A stretch of DNA of 33,571 nt, taken from the NCBI GenBank assembly GCA_031180805.1, contig JAPSLL010000007.1:61966-95536 (forward strand), read 5' to 3'. The position numbers were made by a program, and so were the translations under genes. Below, in pieces: positions 2,813-29,638 of the stretch. The DNA is from Bacillus sp. (in: firmicutes) (lineage in GTDB: Bacteria; Bacillota; Bacilli; Bacillales; Bacillaceae). Within the stretch, counting starts at the first letter, position 1. Every line of letters begins with the position of its first letter. The notes beneath the pieces were generated by a model, which was given only the letters and a program-made list of their open reading frames with translations, was not told where the DNA came from and did not search any database.

Positions 2813-2976
2813 GAGTATAATCCCCTTTTCGTTTGATATTATTACGAATTCCGAAATAGTCCTTTAAAAGATATTATTGCCATTAATGTGGAAAAATTCA
2901 AGAGAATTATATATTGTTATAAACAGAAGGAAGCTTAAGTATAAATAGGGGAAAATTGAACAGAAAAGGTGGGAGT

Positions 2977-3429
2977 ATGTCGAGCATTCTGTTTTTAGCA
3001 TCACCGAGACCTTTCGATTTACCAGTTGAAATCGAAAGCTACAATAATCGTACTATATTTGAGGAACCTTGGTGTGGTTTCGATATTTCGGAAACTGATA
3101 AATACTGGGTTGAAATAATAAAGCCAATTATTACATTGCCATATGTGTACGAAGTGACGGGACTAGGTAATCAATATTTTTTCGTTTATTTAGAAAAATA
3201 TTTTGCAGAAGGCGACATCCTTGAATTATATGAAATACCAGTGCAAAACTGGTACAACGATTCCATTCAGCGTGCCTTGGAATATGATGAAACAATCACG
3301 ATCGATCTTAAGAATTATGTGTATCAAAATCATTTAGGAACCTTTCAATTAAACCGGAAAAATTTGGTCGAGGATTTAGAACATCGCACTTTGGTAACTG
3401 AGCGTGGAGTTACAACGATTGTTAAATAG
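2977..3429 (+). CDS. Conserved-looking hypothetical protein
   Basis: 150 aa from the ATG at 2977. The frame is open from a TTG at 2956, but AAGGTGGGAG directly precedes the ATG and decides the start. No signal peptide or membrane segment is evident. The protein is rich in aromatic residues and acidic overall. It starts MSSILFLASP and contains EEPWCGFDI and YFFVYLEKYF. I do not recognise the family. It sits alone between an MFS gene on the other strand and a strong bidirectional terminator, so context gives no function. The coding reality is supported by the good ribosome binding site and ordered codon use. Confidence 0.7.
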   Translation: MSSILFLASPRPFDLPVEIESYNNRTIFEEPWCGFDISETDKYWVEIIKPIITLPYVYEVTGLGNQYFFVYLEKYFAEGDILELYEIPVQNWYNDSIQRALEYDETITIDLKNYVYQNHLGTFQLNRKNLVEDLEHRTLVTERGVTTIVK

Positions 3430-3512: not shown

Positions 3513-4592
3513 TTAAAGCAGATTTTCAGCATATTCATTTATCATTGATGGCTGTTTTAATATTATTGATACGTGATCCCCAACACGAAACGGTTTCTTT
3601 AGGGCATCCTCGTGAATTGTAAGCAGACCTAATTCAGTTTTAATTGAATAATGAATCTCTTTTCCTTGAAACTGCACGGTCATGACTTCACCTGGAAAGC
3701 CTTCCTCACCATCCGATAATGAAAACTGTTCAGGTCGAATTGGACAAAGGTTATTTTCCTTTAATTGCGGTTCGACTCTTATGTTTTTCCATTGAATAGG
3801 GGGCGAAGTACCAAACGGTTCAAAGGTGATTTCATCGCGCCAAGTTCCTTCAATCATATTCGCTTTACCAACAAACTTAGCCACAAATTCAGTTAGCGGA
3901 TTGTAGTATATTTGCTGTGGTGTATCGAATTGTTCAATCTTACCATTATTCATGACAACAATTTTATCAGCCATTGCAAGAGCCTCTTCTTGATCATGGG
4001 TCACATAAATAATCGTTGCTCCTGTTATACGGTGGAGCTGTTGGATTTCTCTACGCATATCCATTCGTAACTCTGCATCTAAACTACTTAATGGCTCATC
4101 CATCAATAATAGTGCTGGCTTTGGGGCAATTGCCCGCGCTAATGCAACTCTTTGCTTTTGCCCTCCGGAAAGCTCGTGTGGCATTCGATGTGAGAACGAT
4201 TGAAGATTAACAATTTGTAGTACCTCCTCAACTCGTTTTTCAGGATTTGCTTTCATCTCCTTTTTCACAAATTGGTGATGTAGAAGGGGAAAGCGAATAT
4301 GCTCCTTAACATTCATATGAGGCCATAATGCAAATGACTGAAACACCATTCCAATATTCCGTTTTTCTGGTGGAGTAGCTTTATTTTTTTCACTGACACA
4401 TTGTCCATTCATATAAATTTTACCCTCTGATGGGGAATCAAATCCTGCTAAAAGCTTCAATAATGTTGTTTTTCCGCAGCCTGATGGACCTAATATTGCT
4501 ATGAATTCTCCGTCATTAATAGAGAGATTAATTGAGTGTAGGGCGGTTGTCTTACTAAATACCTTGCTTACATTTCTAATGTCTGTTGCCAT
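3513..4592 (-). CDS. ABC importer ATP-binding protein, Fe3+/2-aminoethylphosphonate type
   Basis: 359 aa. Walker A GPSGCGKTT (residues 35-43), Q-loop VFQSFALWPH, signature LSGGQ (141-145), Walker B LLLMDE (161-166) and the H-loop histidine in YVTHDQEEA (about 199) are all intact. A C-terminal TOBE-like region follows (about 280-355). The closest families are FbpC/AfuC and the PhnT2 branch. It overlaps the permease gene by 17 bp and is the last gene of a three-gene unit (binding protein, permease, ATPase), so translation is probably coupled. AAGGTGATG precedes the ATG. It energises uptake at the inner face of the membrane. The substrate is discussed under the binding protein and promoter. Confidence 0.88.
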   Translation of the reverse strand: MATDIRNVSKVFSKTTALHSINLSINDGEFIAILGPSGCGKTTLLKLLAGFDSPSEGKIYMNGQCVSEKNKATPPEKRNIGMVFQSFALWPHMNVKEHIRFPLLHHQFVKKEMKANPEKRVEEVLQIVNLQSFSHRMPHELSGGQKQRVALARAIAPKPALLLMDEPLSSLDAELRMDMRREIQQLHRITGATIIYVTHDQEEALAMADKIVVMNNGKIEQFDTPQQIYYNPLTEFVAKFVGKANMIEGTWRDEITFEPFGTSPPIQWKNIRVEPQLKENNLCPIRPEQFSLSDGEEGFPGEVMTVQFQGKEIHYSIKTELGLLTIHEDALKKPFRVGDHVSIILKQPSMINEYAENLL

Positions 4593-6303
4593 TATGCATC
4601 ACCTTGCTTTCCCAAATCTTTTGAATAAGAAACATAAGAAGAAATCCGACTAGCATGAGAAAAAGGATAACCATTGAAAATGCAGTTGCATGTGTTGTAT
4701 ATCCTGCTTGTTCAAAATTAAAAATAACGAGACCGATTGTTTCTGTTCCACTTGACCATAGTAAGGAAGAAACCGTTAATTCAGTTAAAGCGGTAAGGAA
4801 GACTAAAAAGGCTCCACTCATTAATCCTGGCAAAATAAGTGGAATCAGGATCCTTTTCCATTTCGTAAACAAGGAGGCACCACTCGTTCTTGCAGCATGC
4901 TCCATCGATACATCAATTTGCAGAAGTGATGTCACACTACCCCGAACCTGTAAAATTAGAAACCTCGTAAAATACGCGATATACATTATCCAAACTGATC
5001 CATATATTCCTGGATTCCATCCGGGAATAGGCTCCATCCATGTGAAAATAAGGGCAAGAGCAAGCACTGTTCCAGGAAGAGCATATGGAATGGCAATCAT
5101 TATTTCGAGCGTTTTCGTTAAAAGCGTCGGTTTTCTTACACGTAAATAGGCGATGATAGTACCGATAAAAAGCCCTATTAACGTTACTATCGCTGCTAGC
5201 TTTACACTATTTTCGATTGCATTCGCTGTTTTAGAGCTTGAGAAAAGGACAAATTCAAAATGCTTTAAACTAATATTTTGTAAAGTAAATTCAAGCCCAT
5301 ATGCCTTGATAAGGGAAGTTGCTGCCATTGATAATAAAGGGACGATGCTTGTTGAGATGAGGAAGATCCATAGTATTCCTTGAACAACTAAGCGCTTTTT
5401 CTTAGACAGTGTGAACCGCGGATCCATATCCTCTCTAGATGCTTCAATTTGCTTTGAACGCTTTAAAAGTAACCATTGAATGAGTGTACCGATGATAGCT
5501 ATTAGCCCTAACATAACGGAAAGTACAGCTCCTTTAGCAAATGCAGAAGGTCCAAAGCCGATAATCTGCTCATAAATATAGGTGCTTAACACACGAATAT
5601 TGGCTGGTATCCCTAAAAATGCAGGAATTCCGAAATTATCTAAATTTGCTAAAAAGGCTAAAAGTCCGCCACTAGCAATCCCTGGTAGTGCAAGAGGCAA
5701 TGTGATTCTCCGAAATGTTTTCCATCCTGAGCTTCCAGAAACACTAGCCGCCATTTCAAGCTCTCTCGGAATTTTTCGTAATACACTAACTGTTAACAAG
5801 TAAACTAAAGGATAATGAGAAAAGCCCATTACAATGATAATCCCAGGTATGCTATATAAATTAATCGGTTGTAGCTGACCTGGTAATAGGTTTAGAAAGG
5901 CTGCGACAGGCCCATTTACGCCCATAAACTGTGTCCATGCTAACGTCGTCATATATGATGGAATAATAAATGGTAAAAAGATAAAGATTTGCAGAAGCCT
6001 TTTATGGTGAATATTTGTATAAGCAATGATCCATGCTGTTGCCACTCCTAAGCAAACGGATAGAATGGTCGATCCAGTGACAATGATAAGGGTGTTATAT
6101 ATTGTTTTCCATGTTGCCTGCTCGGATAAAATCTCTTGAAAATGCTCGATGGTTAATCCGTTTTCAGAGGAGATGCTTAAAAGAATGAGTCTGACAACTG
6201 GAACAAAAAAGATTAGAAAGACGAGAAGAAATCCAAGTGCTTTTAGAAAAACAGAGGGGAATCTTTGAGATAGATTCCCCTTTAAACGTGCTAAATGAAA
6301 CAT
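4576..6303 (-). CDS. ABC importer permease, two fused transport domains (FbpB/PhnU2-like)
   Basis: 575 aa, about twelve membrane segments. Two BPD-type domains are fused in one chain. The cytoplasmic EAA-like loops are visible twice: EMAASVSGSSGWKTFRRITL near residue 185 and EHAARTSGASLFTKWKRILI near residue 470. Fused permeases of this length occur in ferric-iron transporters (FbpB, SfuB, HitB) and in the putative 2-aminoethylphosphonate permeases called PhnU2. The gene starts 20 bp after the binding-protein gene, with AAAGAGGC as ribosome binding site, and overlaps the ATPase gene by 17 bp. Confidence 0.87.
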   Translation of the reverse strand: MFHLARLKGNLSQRFPSVFLKALGFLLVFLIFFVPVVRLILLSISSENGLTIEHFQEILSEQATWKTIYNTLIIVTGSTILSVCLGVATAWIIAYTNIHHKRLLQIFIFLPFIIPSYMTTLAWTQFMGVNGPVAAFLNLLPGQLQPINLYSIPGIIIVMGFSHYPLVYLLTVSVLRKIPRELEMAASVSGSSGWKTFRRITLPLALPGIASGGLLAFLANLDNFGIPAFLGIPANIRVLSTYIYEQIIGFGPSAFAKGAVLSVMLGLIAIIGTLIQWLLLKRSKQIEASREDMDPRFTLSKKKRLVVQGILWIFLISTSIVPLLSMAATSLIKAYGLEFTLQNISLKHFEFVLFSSSKTANAIENSVKLAAIVTLIGLFIGTIIAYLRVRKPTLLTKTLEIMIAIPYALPGTVLALALIFTWMEPIPGWNPGIYGSVWIMYIAYFTRFLILQVRGSVTSLLQIDVSMEHAARTSGASLFTKWKRILIPLILPGLMSGAFLVFLTALTELTVSSLLWSSGTETIGLVIFNFEQAGYTTHATAFSMVILFLMLVGFLLMFLIQKIWESKVMHNGNRH

Positions 6304-6323: not shown

Positions 6324-7349
6324 CTATTGATCTCCAAATAATTTGCTGAATTCTTCCTTATCTGCTTCACGATCCTGATATAACTCATTCAATTCAGCAT
6401 CTAATACTTTCATTTCTTCAATTGTTTTTAGTCCTTCTGGTGCTTTTATGCCTTTGCGAATCGGTGTATAGCCGATTTCAGCAGCGAGGTTTTGACCATC
6501 CTCAGATAAAACGAAGTCCACGAATGCTTTTGCCGCTTTCTCGTTTTTCGTCTCTTTCATAATCGCAATTGGTTCCGTAATAACTGGAACACCTTCTTTA
6601 GGGTAAATTAAATCTATTGGTGAACCTTCTGCTTTTGCCCGAGCGACAATGTAGTCAACAACCATACCATACGATTTTTCCCCAGAGGCTACTGCTTGTT
6701 GGACTGCACCGTTTCCCTCTGTCACCATAATCTGATTGTCCTTTAACTTTTCATAAAACTCCCAATTGAATTCATCATTTCGAGTAAATACGCCGAGATT
6801 ATACGCAGCAGCTCCTGAATATAACGGACTTGGCATAATGCCTTGCTCCTTTGCCTCCTCAGAAGCTAATACCTGCCAGGAATCTTGTGCATCAGTTACC
6901 TTATCTGTGTTAATTGCTAAAATCGTCGCCATTACCTTTGTTCCTGTGTACATGCCATCTTTATCAACAAATTCTTCAGGAATTTCACTTGTCTCATTAG
7001 ATTTATAGGATAATAGCATATCCTCTGCCTTTAAGCTTTCAAATGTAACTGCATCTGCGACAAGAAGAACATCTGCTTGAACCTCACCAGCCTGTTGCTC
7101 TGCTTGAATTTTACTAATTACTTCTTCTGTACCTGAGCGGAAAATTTCCACATTTACATCTGGATATTTTTCATTAAATGCATCAACAAGCTTTTGAGCA
7201 TCCTCGTCAGGCTGTGAAGTGTAAAAGGATAAATCGCCTGAGATATCGCTTGATTCTCCACCGTTAGTTGATGAAGAAGAATTGCTACTACATGCAGCTA
7301 ATAAGAAAAGAATAAGAAAAAAGCTAAGTAGTTTTTTAACCTTTGCCAT
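6324..7349 (-). CDS. Substrate-binding lipoprotein, Fe3+/phosphonate-type ABC importer
   Basis: 341 aa. The signal ends in the lipobox LAAC (cysteine 20), followed by a Ser-rich tether, so the mature protein is a membrane-anchored lipoprotein. The fold is that of extracellular binding proteins of the FbpA/AfuA/PhnS2 group, seen in SFYTSQPDEDAQKLVDAFNE, the LYSGAAAYNLG segment and YPKEGVPVITEPIAI. I do not see the adjacent tyrosine pair that binds iron in classical FbpA, which makes a non-iron ligand more credible. First gene of its operon, with AGGAGGATTT ahead of the ATG. The promoter carries PhoP-like repeats, which favours a phosphorus compound (phosphonate or phosphate ester) over iron. 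No Fur-like palindrome was found upstream. The ligand remains inferred. Confidence 0.85.
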   Translation of the reverse strand: MAKVKKLLSFFLILFLLAACSSNSSSSTNGGESSDISGDLSFYTSQPDEDAQKLVDAFNEKYPDVNVEIFRSGTEEVISKIQAEQQAGEVQADVLLVADAVTFESLKAEDMLLSYKSNETSEIPEEFVDKDGMYTGTKVMATILAINTDKVTDAQDSWQVLASEEAKEQGIMPSPLYSGAAAYNLGVFTRNDEFNWEFYEKLKDNQIMVTEGNGAVQQAVASGEKSYGMVVDYIVARAKAEGSPIDLIYPKEGVPVITEPIAIMKETKNEKAAKAFVDFVLSEDGQNLAAEIGYTPIRKGIKAPEGLKTIEEMKVLDAELNELYQDREADKEEFSKLFGDQ

Positions 7350-7432
7350 GAATGAAATCCTCCTATATAAATCAATTATTGCTGAGATTAAACGAGCGAC
7401 GAATCTCTCATACGTTCTAGTCTATTGATTTA

Positions 7433-7483
7433 ATATTAAGGAGTAGTAAAGGGATGGTAGAGCTTTTGTAAAATTAATGTAAA
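7433..7483 (-). promoter_or_regulatory. PhoP-box array and promoter of the Fe3+/phosphonate-type importer
   Basis: On the minus strand, hexamers TTTACA (7483-7478), TTTACA (7472-7467), TCTACC (7461-7456) and TTTACT (7450-7445) recur at an exact 11-bp period with 5-nt spacers. This matches the known B. subtilis PhoP box (TT-A/T/C-A-C-A repeats spaced about 5 nt). TAATAT at 7438-7433 lies 17 bp from the third hexamer and is a plausible -10. The operon's ATG is about 85 bp further on. A further TTTACA at 7503-7498 lies out of phase, 20 bp from the first. Confidence 0.65.
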
Positions 7484-7530
7484 AAAATATCGGATTTTGT
7501 AAAGGGAGATAGAAAGAAGCTTGCGAAGGA

Positions 7531-7590
7531 AAAATAAAAATCCTTTATGCTGATTGTTAGTCGCTTTCCCTAACGAATCAGCATAAAGGA
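7531..7590 (-). terminator. Intrinsic terminator of natAB
   Basis: The arm at 7541-7560 pairs with 7570-7590 along about 20 bp, interrupted only by one bulged base. The minus strand continues into T runs (complement of 7531-7540). It lies 13 bp beyond the natB stop codon. Confidence 0.88.
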
Positions 7591-24161: not shown

Positions 24162-24422
24162 TGAGTGTACCCTCCATCAATTCCCTAATTCATTTTTAAA
24201 ATTCAAGTGAACGCAAAGACGACATTTGAGTATGAGCTAATCTTTTTTGATCACTACATTAATAATAGTCGATTCAATTCAATGTTTCAAATATTTGTCA
24301 TTCTATGTGGGGTTAACTCTGTCTGGTGATGTGAAAAGTGGATATAACTCCTTCGAAATATAGTTTGTCTAATTTATGTACTATACACCGATCGTGTGCT
24401 TAGCGTCCTTTCCAAAAGCATC
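24162..24422. other. Intergenic stretch without recognised content
   Basis: This is the left half of the 554-bp divergent gap between the mpfA-like gene and the glpP-ugp operon. It must hold the mpfA-like promoter, but I could not place a convincing -35/-10 pair, riboswitch or small ORF. The right half holds the ugp promoter and leader, described separately. Confidence 0.6.
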
Positions 24423-24473
24423 TTTACAAAATCAAAACAATAAATTTACAAAATTATACATGTTCTTTATATT
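24423..24473 (+). promoter_or_regulatory. PhoP-box array and promoter of the glpP-ugp operon
   Basis: Hexamers TTTACA (24423), AAAACA (24434), TTTACA (24445) and ATACAT (24456) recur at an exact 11-bp period on the coding strand. The third, TTTACA at 24445-24450, is a fair -35 and is followed after 17 bp by TATATT at 24468-24473, a good -10. Transcription would start near 24480. The geometry is the same as at 7433-7483 and matches known PhoP-activated promoters of Bacillus. Ugp systems are phosphate-starvation genes in other bacteria, which supports the reading. Confidence 0.68.
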
Positions 24474-24542
24474 CACTTTAAATTCGACACGTAACATAAT
24501 GCAATGAAGGACAAGTGAATAGCAATAGGTTGTGAATAAGAG

Positions 24543-24715: not shown

Positions 24716-25315
24716 ATGAATGTTTATCAGGAGTTTACGAGACGATTGAAGGAAGATCGGTTGATCGCATCAATAAAGGATCCGAAAAGCTTAGATATGT
24801 TTCTTAAAACAAACATACAATCTGCGATTCTATTAACAGGAAATATAAGTGTTATTAAACGATATGTCGAGCTTCTAAAAAAGAATAATCGATTTGTTTT
24901 TTTACATATAGAAAAGATCCCTGGTATTAGCTATGACCGGGAAGGGTTAAAGTTTATCGCGAAATTTGTTAATCCAACAGGAATCGTAACAACGAAAAGC
25001 TCGCTTATCCAATTAGCGAAAAGGGAAGGACTTATTACAATTCAAAGGCTTTTTTTAGTTGATACAGAGGCTGTGGAAAATGGTTTACATTCAGTAGCTG
25101 AAATCCAGCCACATGCTTTAGAAATCATGCCAGCACTCATTCCCGAAATGATAGCAAAACTAAAAAATGAAACGAATCTACCTATTATTACTGGTGGGCT
25201 TATTCAAGAGCAGCGCCATATCGATGCAGCATTAAAGAGTGGGGCTGTTGCTGTATCGACAGGGAGGCCTTGGCTTTGGAAGGTGCAGCAGCCCACGCTT
25301 TCAATGAATAGCTAG
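24716..25315 (+). CDS. glpP: Glycerol-3-phosphate-responsive antiterminator, GlpP family
   Basis: 199 aa, close to the ~190 aa of B. subtilis GlpP, with a TIM-barrel-like G3P_antiterm pattern throughout. Segments typical of the family are FVFLHIEKIPGISYDREGLK (about 62-81), NPTGIVTTKSSLIQLAKREG (about 88-107), TIQRLFLVDTEAVENGL, LEIMPALIPEMIAKL and ITGGLIQEQRHIDAALKSGA followed by VAVSTGRPWLWK. Bound to glycerol-3-phosphate it should act on leader RNA so that transcription reads through a terminator. It is the first gene of the ugp operon, 59 bp before ugpC, behind a leader terminator. It may be a second GlpP dedicated to this operon rather than the orthologue that controls glpFK and glpD. 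Confidence 0.85.
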   Translation: MNVYQEFTRRLKEDRLIASIKDPKSLDMFLKTNIQSAILLTGNISVIKRYVELLKKNNRFVFLHIEKIPGISYDREGLKFIAKFVNPTGIVTTKSSLIQLAKREGLITIQRLFLVDTEAVENGLHSVAEIQPHALEIMPALIPEMIAKLKNETNLPIITGGLIQEQRHIDAALKSGAVAVSTGRPWLWKVQQPTLSMNS

Positions 25316-25374
25316 TAAAGCAGTTTTGAAAAGGACATTCGGTAAAAAAATTTTGTTATAAAGGAGGAGCTTTC

Positions 25375-26496
25375 ATGAAACGCGTTGAGCTAAAAAATGT
25401 CTCCAAATCGTATGATGGAAAGACGAATGTAATGAAGGATATAAATGTTGCAATTGAACCAGGTGAGTTTTTTGTTTTAGTAGGTCCTTCTGGTTGTGGG
25501 AAGAGTACGATGCTGCGAATGATTGCAGGTCTTGAAGAGGTTTCGGCTGGTGAGCTGTATATTGGAGAGCAATTTTCCAATAAATTGCCACCAAGTGCGC
25601 GAAATCTCTCAATGGTTTTTCAAAATTATGCTCTTTATCCACATTTAAGTGTGCAACAAAATATTACCTTTGGGCTACATACGAAGAAAATCTCAAGGCA
25701 GGAGCAGCAGCAACGGTGCCTAGAGGCAGCTGAAATGTTAGGGTTATCCGAGCTATTAAATCGAAAGCCAAGACAATTATCAGGTGGTCAGAGGCAACGT
25801 GTTGCTTTGGCGAGAGCAATTGTTACACATGCCCCTATTTGTCTTATGGATGAGCCGTTGTCGAATTTGGATGCGAAGCTAAGAGCCAAAATGCGTTCCG
25901 AAATTCGGCAAATTCAGCGGAAATTAGGAATTACGATGATTTATGTTACACATGATCAAACGGAAGCGATGACAATGGCAGACCGGATGATGATATTACA
26001 TAATGGAGAAATTCAACAAATCGGCAAGCCGTTGGAGATTTACAATCATCCGAACAATACTTTTGTTGCATCGTTTATTGGCTCTCCACCAATGAATCTA
26101 GTAGATGTCATGATAAGTGATGGAAAAGTCGTTCTTGACGATGAACGTTCAGTGCTAATAAACGGTGCAAACCTTAAATCCTATTCAAAGGGAAATGAAG
26201 TGACAATAGGAGTTCGCCCTGAGCATGTTCAGCTCGCAAAGGATGGTCAATTAAGCTTTATGGCTGATGTTGTGAACGTCGAGGTACTTGGCACTGAAAC
26301 GCTTTTAACCTTTGGAATTGGAAAAGGACAATGGATTGCAAAATGGAACGGTCAGTGGAATATTGATGTCGGTGAGCGGGTACCTTTGTACATTGAGGAA
26401 AAGGATCTCTTTCTATTTGAAAAGGAAAGTGGAAAGTGTATTTGGCATCAGCCGAAAACGGAACAGCGCAAGGCGGTTAGGGAGGCTATCCTATGA
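25375..26496 (+). CDS. ugpC: Glycerol-3-phosphate ABC importer ATPase UgpC
   Basis: 373 aa, MalK/UgpC type. Walker A GPSGCGKST (37-45), Q-loop VFQNYALYPH, signature LSGGQ (135-139), Walker B ICLMDE (155-160) and H-loop YVTHDQTEA (H193) are intact. The C-terminal ~130 residues form the TOBE/regulatory domain (GVRPEHVQLA near 280). AAAGGAGGAGC precedes the ATG. The stop overlaps the ugpA start by 4 bp (ATGA). It drives uptake through UgpA-UgpE. The specificity is assigned from the binding protein and GlpP neighbour, since UgpC-like ATPases alone serve many sugars. Confidence 0.87.
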   Translation: MKRVELKNVSKSYDGKTNVMKDINVAIEPGEFFVLVGPSGCGKSTMLRMIAGLEEVSAGELYIGEQFSNKLPPSARNLSMVFQNYALYPHLSVQQNITFGLHTKKISRQEQQQRCLEAAEMLGLSELLNRKPRQLSGGQRQRVALARAIVTHAPICLMDEPLSNLDAKLRAKMRSEIRQIQRKLGITMIYVTHDQTEAMTMADRMMILHNGEIQQIGKPLEIYNHPNNTFVASFIGSPPMNLVDVMISDGKVVLDDERSVLINGANLKSYSKGNEVTIGVRPEHVQLAKDGQLSFMADVVNVEVLGTETLLTFGIGKGQWIAKWNGQWNIDVGERVPLYIEEKDLFLFEKESGKCIWHQPKTEQRKAVREAIL

Positions 26497-27431
26497 GTAG
26501 TTTGCCAGACGTATCTGCACAAGACGTAAAGGTAACAAATCGCCAGTTTGGTAGGAAAAGAGAGTGGCCAAACTTTGTTGTAGGACTTCTGTATTTACTG
26601 CCATCGATTATTTTGTTTAGTCTTTTTCTCTTTTACCCGATGCTTAGAACGCTTTACTTAAGCTTCTTTTTAACGGATGGACAGGGGTTGCCTGTTTCAT
26701 TTGTTGGGTTTGAAAACTTTACCTACTTATTACAATCCCAAAGCTTTCAAAATAGTATTAAAGCGACATTGCTTTTTGTCCTTTTTACAGTTCCTGCAGG
26801 CGTCATTTTAGCGCTGTTTTTAGCGTTAATTGCAAATGAAAAGGTAAGAGGAATCGGCATTTTTAGAACGCTATTTTCTTCAACAATGGGAATGAGTGTA
26901 GCGGCATCATCTGTTATTTGGATGTTTATGTACAATCCGACAATTGGAATATTAAACAAAATCATTGGCATATTCGGCATATCAGATATAGAGTGGCTGC
27001 TTGATCCGAAGTTTGCTTTACTAGCAGTCTCGATTTCTACAATTTGGATGAATACAGGTTTTGCCTTTCTCATTTTATTAGGAGGACTGCAAAATATCGA
27101 TGATACGCTCTACGAGAATGCTAATATCGCTGGGGTGAGCTACATGTATAAATTACGAAAGATTACCCTTCCGATGCTATCACCAACGCTTTTCTTTATC
27201 ATAACGGTATCATTAATCAATGCCTTCCAAACCTTTGGACAGATCGATATTTTGACAAAGGGAGGCCCAATTGAATCAACAAATGTTATTGTCTACTCGA
27301 TTTATAAGGATGCCTTTGTTAATTACAATGTCGGCTCAGCAAGTGCTCAAGCAACTATCCTGTTCTTCTGTATTCTAGTGATTACGATTCTTCAATTTAA
27401 ACTAGGAGAAAGGAAGGTTCATTACCAGTGA
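26493..27431 (+). CDS. ugpA: Glycerol-3-phosphate ABC importer permease UgpA
   Basis: 312 aa, six hydrophobic segments after a polar N-terminus of about 28 residues. The EAA loop is ENANIAGVSYMYKLRKITLP (about 208-227), the contact site for the ATPase. GGGAGG lies 8 nt upstream of the ATG. It is translationally coupled to ugpC (4-bp overlap) and to ugpE (GTGA overlap). First of the two MalF/MalG-type permease subunits. Confidence 0.87.
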   Translation: MSSLPDVSAQDVKVTNRQFGRKREWPNFVVGLLYLLPSIILFSLFLFYPMLRTLYLSFFLTDGQGLPVSFVGFENFTYLLQSQSFQNSIKATLLFVLFTVPAGVILALFLALIANEKVRGIGIFRTLFSSTMGMSVAASSVIWMFMYNPTIGILNKIIGIFGISDIEWLLDPKFALLAVSISTIWMNTGFAFLILLGGLQNIDDTLYENANIAGVSYMYKLRKITLPMLSPTLFFIITVSLINAFQTFGQIDILTKGGPIESTNVIVYSIYKDAFVNYNVGSASAQATILFFCILVITILQFKLGERKVHYQ

Positions 27432-28240
27432 GCATTTTAAAAAAAGTCATCTTATATTGCTTATTAATTATTTCAGTTGTGTTTATGATGTTTCCGATTT
27501 TTTATGCGTTTATGATTAGCTTTATGCAAGGCGGTGAGGTGCTAAAAGGGAATTTAATTCCCGATTCCTTTTCACTTACAAACTACATGACAGCATTTGA
27601 AAAGGTACCGCTTATTCGCTATTTATGGAATAGCTTCTTCGTTTCAGCAATTGTGATGATTGGTCAATTAATTGTCTCAAGCTTAGCTGCTTTCGCGTTT
27701 GTCTTTATTCCCTTTAAAGGGAGAGAGTTCATTTTCTTTTTGTTTATTTCAACGATGATGATTCCATGGGAAGCGACGATGGTTCCCAACTTCTTGTTAG
27801 TTCAAAAGCTTGGCTGGATTAACGAGTATACAAGCTTAACAATACCATTTTTTGCACTAGCCTTTGGAACGTTTTTAATGAGGCAGCAATTTAAAACAAT
27901 TCCAAAGGAGTTATTCGAAGCATCTCAGGTAGCAGGGATCAGTCGGTTTCGATTTTTCTGGAATATCGTGTTGCCTGTTTCGAAGACTAGTTTTATAACG
28001 TTAGGGATTTATAGCTTTTTAACAACTTGGAATATGTATTTATGGCCTTTGCTTGTCACGAATAACGAGAGTGTTCGTACAGTGCAAATTGGCTTAAAGC
28101 AATTGCAATCTCAAGAAATTTCCACTGAATGGGGGGTGGTGATGGCAGCAGTCGTCGTTGTAATACTTCCGACTCTCATCTTGTTGTTTTTAGGGCAAAA
28201 ACGTCTTCAAAAAGGGTTAACTCAAGGTGCAATTAAATAA
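27428..28240 (+). CDS. ugpE: Glycerol-3-phosphate ABC importer permease UgpE
   Basis: 270 aa, MalG-type permease with six hydrophobic segments. EAA loop EASQVAGISRFRFFWNIVLP (about 164-183) and the C-terminal MAAVVVVILPTLILLFLGQK are typical. Start is GTG at 27428, within the GTGA overlap with ugpA, so coupling is likely; AGGAAGG lies 11 nt upstream. Forms the membrane pore with UgpA. Confidence 0.87.
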   Translation: MSILKKVILYCLLIISVVFMMFPIFYAFMISFMQGGEVLKGNLIPDSFSLTNYMTAFEKVPLIRYLWNSFFVSAIVMIGQLIVSSLAAFAFVFIPFKGREFIFFLFISTMMIPWEATMVPNFLLVQKLGWINEYTSLTIPFFALAFGTFLMRQQFKTIPKELFEASQVAGISRFRFFWNIVLPVSKTSFITLGIYSFLTTWNMYLWPLLVTNNESVRTVQIGLKQLQSQEISTEWGVVMAAVVVVILPTLILLFLGQKRLQKGLTQGAIK

Positions 28241-28267
28241 TTTTATGCAAATCGAGGAGGATTTACC

Positions 28268-29638
28268 GTGAAGAAAAAATTGTTAATCGTCATTTCTGCG
28301 TTATTTTTATTACTTTTAGGTGCGTGCTCTACTAGTACAAATTCGAATTCTTCTGAATCAGATGTAAAAGGTGATGGAGAGGAAACTGGCAGCACAGGGA
28401 AGCAGGAAGTAGTATTTTGGCATGCGATGAGTGGAGAGCTTGAAACGGTATTAAATGATATTGTTGCAGATTTTAATAAATCTCAAGATAACATTGAGGT
28501 TAAGCCTATTTTCCAAGGTACATATGAAGAGTCATTAACAAAGTTTAACTCAGTTGCAGGAACTGATGATGCGCCAACGATAATGCAAGTGTTTGAGGTT
28601 GGAACAAAGTATATGATTGATAGCGGAAAAATCCAACCAGTGCAAAAATTTATTGATGAGGATAACTATGATACATCACAATGGGAAGAGAATATTTCAA
28701 ATTATTATACAGTTGATGGTGAACAATATTCGATGCCTTTCAACTCATCAACACCAATTTTAATCTACAATAAGGATGCGTTTAAAGAGGCTGGATTAGA
28801 TCCGGAAAAAGCTCCAATGACATATAGTGAATTAAAAGAAGCAGCAAAAAAATTAACGAAAAAAGAAGGTGGAGAAACGACTAGATACGGCTTCTCTATC
28901 TTAAATTATGGCTGGTTCTTTGAAGAGATGCTTGCTGAGCAAGGCGGTCATTATGTAGATAATGAAAACGGTAGAAAAGGAAATGCAGAAAAAGCAACTT
29001 TTAATGACGAAAAGGGCTTAAAGGTTTTCAATTTAATTAGTGAAATGTATAAAGAAGGAACATATTATAATGTAGGACAAAACTGGGATGATATGCGTGC
29101 TGCCTTCCAATCTGGAAAAATTGCTATGTATCTCGATTCATCTGCTGGGATTAAAGCAATGGTTGATAACTCAGACTTTGAAGTAGGAGCATCATACTTA
29201 CCAATTCCAAATGATTCAGAGCGTGAAGGTGTTATCATTGGTGGTGCTTCAATCTGGATGTCTAGCGGTATCGATGAAGAGAAGCAAAAGGCTGCATGGG
29301 AATTTATGAAATATTTGACTACACCAGAGATACAAGCTGAATGGCATGTGAAATCAGGGTACTTTGCGATTAACCCTGCTGCTTATGAGCAAGATATTGT
29401 TAAAGAAGAATGGGAAAAATATCCGCAATTAAAAGTAACAGTTGATCAGCTTGCTGAGACAAAGAAAAGCACAGCAACTCAAGGTGCATTAATTTCTGTA
29501 TTCCCTGAATCTCGTCAAAAGGTTGTAACGGCAATGGAAAAGCTCTATCAAGGAATGGAGCCGAAAGAGGCATTAGATCAAGCAGCTGAAGAAACGAACC
29601 GAGCATTAGAGGTTGCGAATAAAAAGCAAGGAAAATAA
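28268..29638 (+). CDS. ugpB: Glycerol-3-phosphate-binding lipoprotein UgpB
   Basis: 456 aa. Lipoprotein signal ending LGAC (cysteine 20), then a Ser/Asn-rich linker. The mature part matches E. coli UgpB as I recall it in several places: VVFWHAMSGELETVLNDIVA, PTIMQVFEVGTKYMIDSG, MPFNSSTPILIYNKDAFKEA, GVIIGGASIWM, and AEWHVKSGYFAI. This makes glycerol-3-phosphate, and possibly glycerophosphodiesters, the likely ligand. Start is GTG with GAGGAGG 8 nt upstream. Last gene of the operon, followed by a terminator. The order ATPase-permease-permease-binding protein differs from the E. coli order. Confidence 0.9.
   Translation: MKKKLLIVISALFLLLLGACSTSTNSNSSESDVKGDGEETGSTGKQEVVFWHAMSGELETVLNDIVADFNKSQDNIEVKPIFQGTYEESLTKFNSVAGTDDAPTIMQVFEVGTKYMIDSGKIQPVQKFIDEDNYDTSQWEENISNYYTVDGEQYSMPFNSSTPILIYNKDAFKEAGLDPEKAPMTYSELKEAAKKLTKKEGGETTRYGFSILNYGWFFEEMLAEQGGHYVDNENGRKGNAEKATFNDEKGLKVFNLISEMYKEGTYYNVGQNWDDMRAAFQSGKIAMYLDSSAGIKAMVDNSDFEVGASYLPIPNDSEREGVIIGGASIWMSSGIDEEKQKAAWEFMKYLTTPEIQAEWHVKSGYFAINPAAYEQDIVKEEWEKYPQLKVTVDQLAETKKSTATQGALISVFPESRQKVVTAMEKLYQGMEPKEALDQAAEETNRALEVANKKQGK

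Follow-up and report, generated by a model that had tools for sequence, protein, structure and literature searches.

A PhoP-type promoter and a predicted phosphate-ester importer in a Metabacillus-like bacterium

The UgpBAEC importer of glycerol-3-phosphate and glycerophosphodiesters is a starvation importer of phosphate esters, like the importer proposed here. Organophosphate binders of the FbpA/AfuA fold are also already known: AfuABC is reported to import hexose and heptose phosphates (PMC4546632), and P5PAB, with its binding protein P5PA, to import pyridoxal phosphate (PMC8427247). In addition, there is precedent for Pho-controlled importers with "iron-type" binding proteins, as AepX, annotated as an Fe3+ binding protein, is described as PhoBR-dependent in Pseudomonas putida (PMC8316502, PMC5082522). 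The operon considered here, which automatic annotation would likewise assign to iron transport, lies on the minus strand (7349-3513) of a 33,571-nucleotide stretch of a Bacillus sp. assembly (GCA_031180805.1, contig JAPSLL010000007.1, positions 61,966 to 95,536 of the forward strand). This whole stretch is referred to as the window, and its numbering is used for all coordinates given without a locus name. Judged from sequence, it is reasonably probable that the operon encodes a PhoP-activated importer for phosphate starvation whose cargo, phosphodiesters or nucleotide-like esters, would be hydrolysed in the cytoplasm.

The importer promoter and its regulator

The window genome is Metabacillus-like, and the binding protein is 98% identical to a protein of Metabacillus niabensis Q2603 (locus G000:C28 in the window genome). 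As the earlier, sequence-only reading of this DNA described, the operon encodes, in order, a substrate-binding lipoprotein of 341 amino acids (6324..7349) with the conserved segments FYTSQ, RSGTE, SPxYSGAA, GNG and VVD(F/Y), a fused (double) BPD permease of 575 amino acids with two BPD_transp_1 stretches (4576..6303), and an ABC ATPase of 359 amino acids with a TOBE_2 domain (3513..4592), all on the minus strand.

Upstream of these genes, at 7483-7434 on the same strand, five hexamers with an exact 11-bp period are followed by a gap of 9 bp and the -10 element TAGACT (7419..7424). The first two hexamers both read TTTACA (7478..7483 and 7467..7472), the third, TCTACC (7456..7461), is degenerate, the fourth is TTTACT (7445..7450), and the fifth, TTAATA (7434..7439), keeps the same register and is aligned in orthologous promoters. 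The sequence-only reading had recognized the first four at their exact period, and the fifth now joins them. It had also placed the third hexamer 17 bp from TAATAT (7438-7433), taken as the -10; the distance is right, but the conserved -10 is TAGACT, and the 17-bp spacing is misleading because TAATAT overlaps the fifth hexamer (7439-7434).

TT(A/T/C)A(C/T)A-like direct repeats with an 11-bp period, directly upstream of a -10 element, are the arrangement of Bacillus-type PhoP promoters. A search for four TTWACA hexamers separated by N5 spacers, with no more than three mismatches, gave one match in the window and none in 100 shuffles. With a position weight matrix (PWM) built from eight further sites in the genome, the importer array scores 21.4, a value reached by none of 5000 first-order Markov sequences modelled on the intergenic region. 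When the same matrix was applied to the 250 bp upstream of the first gene, the best four-hexamer score was at least 8 in 26 of 38 orthologous operons versus 5 of 187 control genes from the same loci (Fisher 4e-20, which overstates the evidence because many of the genomes are related), and at least 12 in 18 of the operons versus a single control gene. The PhoP-like promoter of the earlier reading is supported by both the score and its conservation.

The array is kept across several genera in which the remaining upstream region diverges. Among 18 selected orthologous promoters, the hexamer 9 bp past the fifth repeat always reads T at position 1, A at position 2 and T at position 6, and, of the offsets 4-15, offset 9 gives the highest mean identity to TATAAT.

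Throughout the genome, the TTWACA array pattern has 11 matches, versus 3 for a reversed control pattern. NCBIfam and Pfam supplied names for genes beside the ten remaining matches, and eight of these ten arrays were tabulated. Arrays lie upstream of two PstS genes, ppk and the gene of a choice-of-anchor I protein. Another array, between phoR and hflK (L144 3119-3157, in G000:C93), has a -10 element at 9 bp, a hint that phosphate may control hflKC in this genome. The array at L050 (1501-1539), with TACACT at 9 bp, precedes a membrane protein, which has no NCBIfam or Pfam match, and an ABC ATPase, the latter being read as ECF-like. Beside a Na/Pi symporter and a DUF47-PiT pair (L041 and L042, both 1501-1539), the arrays are oriented opposite to the genes and could be repressor-type sites. 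At L048 and L051, no phosphate link was seen among the adjoining genes. A TANNNT-like -10 exactly 9 bp past the last hexamer occurs at five of the eight tabulated arrays (both pstS, choice-of-anchor I, hflK and L050), and was not found at the ppk, Na/Pi and PiT arrays.

The candidate regulator is encoded in G000:C93, where a response regulator and a kinase are adjacent and are followed by hflK, hflC and genes interpreted as polA and mutM. With 513 bits, the kinase exceeds the PnpS cut-off of 400. The response regulator, identified as PhoP by its position, passes no NCBIfam cut-off, and its best score is to YycF (287 of 340). This score is one of the points in favour of another regulator, WalR (YycF), whose consensus is TGTWAH-N5-TGTWAH and which reads a near-identical motif in reverse. 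Were the array a WalR site, or one common to WalR and PhoP, the importer would be tied to cell-wall turnover, for example to the uptake of wall teichoic acid fragments. On the plus strand, hexamers 1 and 2 form a perfect match to this consensus (7467-7483), the only one in the window, and a 3D-domain wall protein is encoded at 232-1467. However, the match is not decisive, as the WalR motif overlaps that of PhoP, and the WalR pattern is not specific, since with one mismatch it occurs 17 times against 10.6 expected by chance. Evidence against WalR also comes from the five repeats, set at a constant distance of 9 bp from the -10 as at both pstS genes, and from the remaining genome matches of the array, which favour phosphate genes. 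It is the weaker rival and an improbable one, and the importer operon is very likely to be under PhoP control.

A weaker PhoP-like array, with a score reached by 8 of 2000 Markov sequences, lies elsewhere in the window at 24412-24500 on the plus strand. It precedes a glycerol-3-phosphate antiterminator (PF04309) and a Ugp-like operon (together 24716-29638, plus strand). In the Ugp-like operon (25375-29638), UgpC is above its cut-off, and UgpA, UgpE and UgpB are the best matches yet fall below theirs; the operon is read as a second phosphate-ester importer inside the window.

The binding protein and candidate cargoes

An AlphaFold2 model of the binding protein (pLDDT 88) has the FbpA/AfuA fold, with AfuA, MctA and FbpA practically tied as structural matches. 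By sequence, the nearest solved proteins are the glucose-6-phosphate-binding VcA0625 (8x1a), P5PA and AfuA. In alignment, positions that bind the anion are kept: T74 corresponds to AfuA Ser37 and P5PA Thr37, and S178-G179 to AfuA Ser148-Gly149, residues whose roles are described for AfuA and P5PA (PMC4546632, PMC8427247). The sugar-phosphate motif of AfuA is given as His205, Asp206 and Glu229 (PMC4546632). Neither His205, aligned to Y233 or V231, nor Glu229, aligned to I257, is kept in either of two alignments, and just one of the two pairs Asp206 with D232.

These similarities bear on an importer of the AfuABC/HptA or P5PA type, whose cargo would be a phosphate monoester (a sugar phosphate or a cofactor phosphate) and for which any neighbouring hydrolases would be accessory. 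The closest solved relatives and the kept anion-binding positions agree with such an importer, and the loss of the AfuA sugar residues does not.

An Fe3+ (or metal-citrate) importer, the label that automatic annotation would give, is scarcely credible. The promoter is of the phosphate type, and no adjacent conserved Tyr pair was seen among 62 homologues, compared without residue alignment to FbpA itself; position 233 is F, Y or A, and position 234 is never Y. The Fur 7-1-7 consensus was used to search for an iron-responsive site, and the best candidate agrees at 9 of 14 positions, which 86% of 300 Markov sequences also reach and which is therefore not above chance. The sequence-only reading had argued against iron and had seen no Fur-like site, and on both points it stands.

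It had also named the 2-aminoethylphosphonate (PhnS2-T2-U2) branch. Among NCBIfam models, PhnS2, PhnU2 and PhnT2 do match the three proteins best, and AepX offers the precedent of a Pho-dependent binding protein with an iron label. However, the scores of 136, 215 and 334 bits are all far below the respective cut-offs of 393, 593 and 458. The window genome has no match to the phosphonatase PhnX (TIGR01422) or the C-P lyase subunit PhnJ (PF06007), the two phosphonate routes searched for. Among 39 genomes with the importer, including the window's, PhnX is found in 9, PhnJ in 17 and neither in 17, the window's among these last. Furthermore, no phosphonate gene was seen in 20 annotated plasmid neighbourhoods of distant homologues. 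The 2-aminoethylphosphonate branch is not borne out, and an AepXVW-like importer of this or any other phosphonate has a low probability.

Partner enzymes of related importers

The ligand of the window's importer is inferred from its orthologues, since the window genome encodes neither of two enzymes, SurE and a xylose-isomerase-like TIM barrel, that recur beside them. Among the operons of the 38 relatives, a full-length TIM barrel adjoins the importer in 15, with fragments in 3 more, SurE in 16 and a PHP-domain phosphatase in 9. The TIM barrel (Endo IV-like), SurE or both are found in 20, and the gene order PHP-TIM-SurE-binding protein-permease-ATPase occurs in eight. Within the 39 importer genomes, all 16 SurE matches and 16 of 17 TIM matches are at the operon. 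In a sample of 299 genomes of the order, SurE is present in 17, comprising 14 of 26 importer genomes versus 3 of 273 others (Fisher 1.5e-14).

Two copies of SurE score 204.7 and 193.6 bits against TIGR00087 (cut-off 135.1), and the NDDG, Ser and Asn motifs, which have functional roles in SurE, are kept in 16 copies. In the TIM barrel, H110, E149, D181, H184, H205, D208, H215 and E242 align with His, Glu and Asp positions of Endo IV that are presumably its zinc ligands, and H69 aligns with MJ1311 only. The family also aligns with the phosphodiesterase CbiR, below the cut-off. No evident signal peptide was seen in the N-termini of four copies each of SurE, TIM and PHP, one TIM row having an uncertain long start, suggesting that the ester is probably imported whole. 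In one relative (L091/L011), in-frame stops interrupt the genes of the binding protein and the permease; a PhoP-like array and the TIM gene are still present there.

More distant homologues, 38-50% identical, are found on plasmids of Alphaproteobacteria, Enterobacterales and Aerococcus, with 452 records matched at E 1e-5 and 105 at 1e-30. From these, 20 neighbourhoods were chosen manually, with their gene content still unseen, so as to span a range of taxa; two of the homologues, from Thermus and Agrobacterium, share only about 30% identity with the window protein. The importer is joined to an MBL-fold hydrolase and a phosphatase in 9 of the 20. The phosphatase is SurE in Nitratireductor and Aminobacter, a histidine phosphatase in two Paracoccaceae, Enterobacter and Phaeobacter, and an annotated protein or dual-specificity phosphatase in Salipiger, Pannonibacter and Paracoccus pantotrophus, this last assignment being taken from record annotation, with two tested proteins scoring under the Pfam cut-off. 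The nearest PDB structures to the one MBL protein compared are the RNase TTHA0252 and CPSF73. The swapping of one phosphatase family for another beside the same importer is expected if the cargo is a phosphate ester, and a phosphodiester or nucleotide-like ligand is suggested by the combination of a diesterase with a monoesterase.

Monoesters are themselves substrates of SurE and histidine phosphatases, which agrees with the monoester importer considered above. The partner enzymes, however, combine a diesterase-type fold with a monoesterase, and, with the missing sugar residues, this makes a monoester cargo rather unlikely. Between the preferred phosphodiester or nucleotide-like cargo and other phosphorus esters, the former is favoured at about even confidence. 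That the cargo is a phosphorus ester of some kind is likely, and such an ester is more likely than a phosphonate or iron. Of the "phosphonate or phosphate-ester" that the sequence-only reading proposed, a phosphorus compound is therefore supported as the cargo, with the neighbourhoods of relatives favouring the ester half and the phosphonate half being dropped.

In addition to the YycF-like score of the regulator and the near-identical WalR motif, several observations weigh against PhoP-activated uptake of phosphodiesters or nucleotide-like esters. Twelve of the 38 operons score below 8 with the PWM, and L104, L109, L114 and L115 score below 0. Neither the TIM barrel nor SurE adjoins 18 of the 38 operons, and in the window's own genus only one of 12 importer genomes has both enzymes (G058, locus L121, whose binding protein shares about 71-75% identity with that of the window). 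Relatedness among the genomes also means that the counts are not independent observations. The three SurE genomes without the importer belong to one genus, and SurE stands alone in the two that were fetched. On the plasmids, three of the 20 neighbourhoods have only another type of phosphoesterase (HAD, PhoX or metallophosphoesterase) and eight have no adjacent phosphoesterase. The regulators adjoining the proteobacterial operons are of DeoR, LacI and sugar-binding types, which suggest control by carbon; as these are sugar-sensing types, the carbon skeleton may matter in proteobacteria.

Around the importer in the window, a terminator-like inverted repeat, TCCTTTATGCTGATT...AATCAGCATAAAGGA, with a T-rich run after it was read by eye at approximately 7530..7580 on the minus strand; the hairpin may end the upstream ABC-2 permease gene and isolate the importer operon. 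Between the ATPase and MFS genes, an open reading frame of 157 amino acids (2956-3429, plus strand) has no Pfam match, and only a partial match to it was seen at L006, the relative nearest to the window. The 3D-domain protein, encoded on the minus strand, has a PcsB-like coiled coil and is a candidate wall hydrolase. Its gene comes after the MFS gene, an order shared by nearer Metabacillus relatives.

Proposed function and comparison with known systems

Under phosphate limitation, phosphorylated PhoP would bind the tandem repeats head to tail, cover the -35 region and recruit RNA polymerase. The lipoprotein would then capture an extracellular phosphate ester, which the fused permease and ATPase would import whole. 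In relatives, phosphate would be freed by a cytoplasmic phosphodiesterase, which is the Endo IV-like TIM barrel or, in proteobacteria, the MBL-fold enzyme, together with a phosphomonoesterase of the SurE, histidine or dual-specificity phosphatase type; in the window's species, its release would fall to enzymes other than SurE and TIM.

More broadly, and only tentatively, these importers may form a family of ABC importers, activated by PhoP and not described before, for intact nucleotides or small phosphodiesters, such as 2',3'-cyclic or dinucleotides or glycerophosphodiesters. In most lineages, such an importer would feed a co-transcribed cytoplasmic phosphodiesterase-nucleotidase pair, whose members would differ between Bacillota and Pseudomonadota, being replaced by unrelated enzymes with the same activity. 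Under the proposal, a widespread family of binding proteins annotated as iron transport gains a function that can be tested, and some soil and marine bacteria are predicted to take up organic phosphate esters whole rather than break them down extracellularly. The candidate ligands are reduced to a short list by the interchangeable diesterase and monoesterase genes that recur beside the importer.

Compared with AfuABC, at about 22% identity and with His205 and Glu229 not kept, the window-type family has a fused permease, hydrolase partners and a phosphate-type promoter. It shares with P5PAB the fold and the Ser/Thr/Gly positions of the phosphate loop, and differs in the ring-binding residues and gene context. 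UgpBAEC has a binding protein of another family and two separate permeases. The 2-aminoethylphosphonate importers AepXVW, PhnSTUV and PhnS2-T2-U2 resemble the window's importer in their "Fe3+-type" binding protein and supply its best NCBIfam models; the importer differs from them in scoring below the cut-offs, in having no phosphonate catabolic genes nearby, and in the phosphodiesterase and phosphatase partners of the family. Its promoter has the direct repeats, 11-bp period and position upstream of the -10 that are described for the PhoP boxes of Bacillus Pho regulon promoters (review, PMC4415409), and departs from these only in its fifth repeat and degenerate third hexamer.
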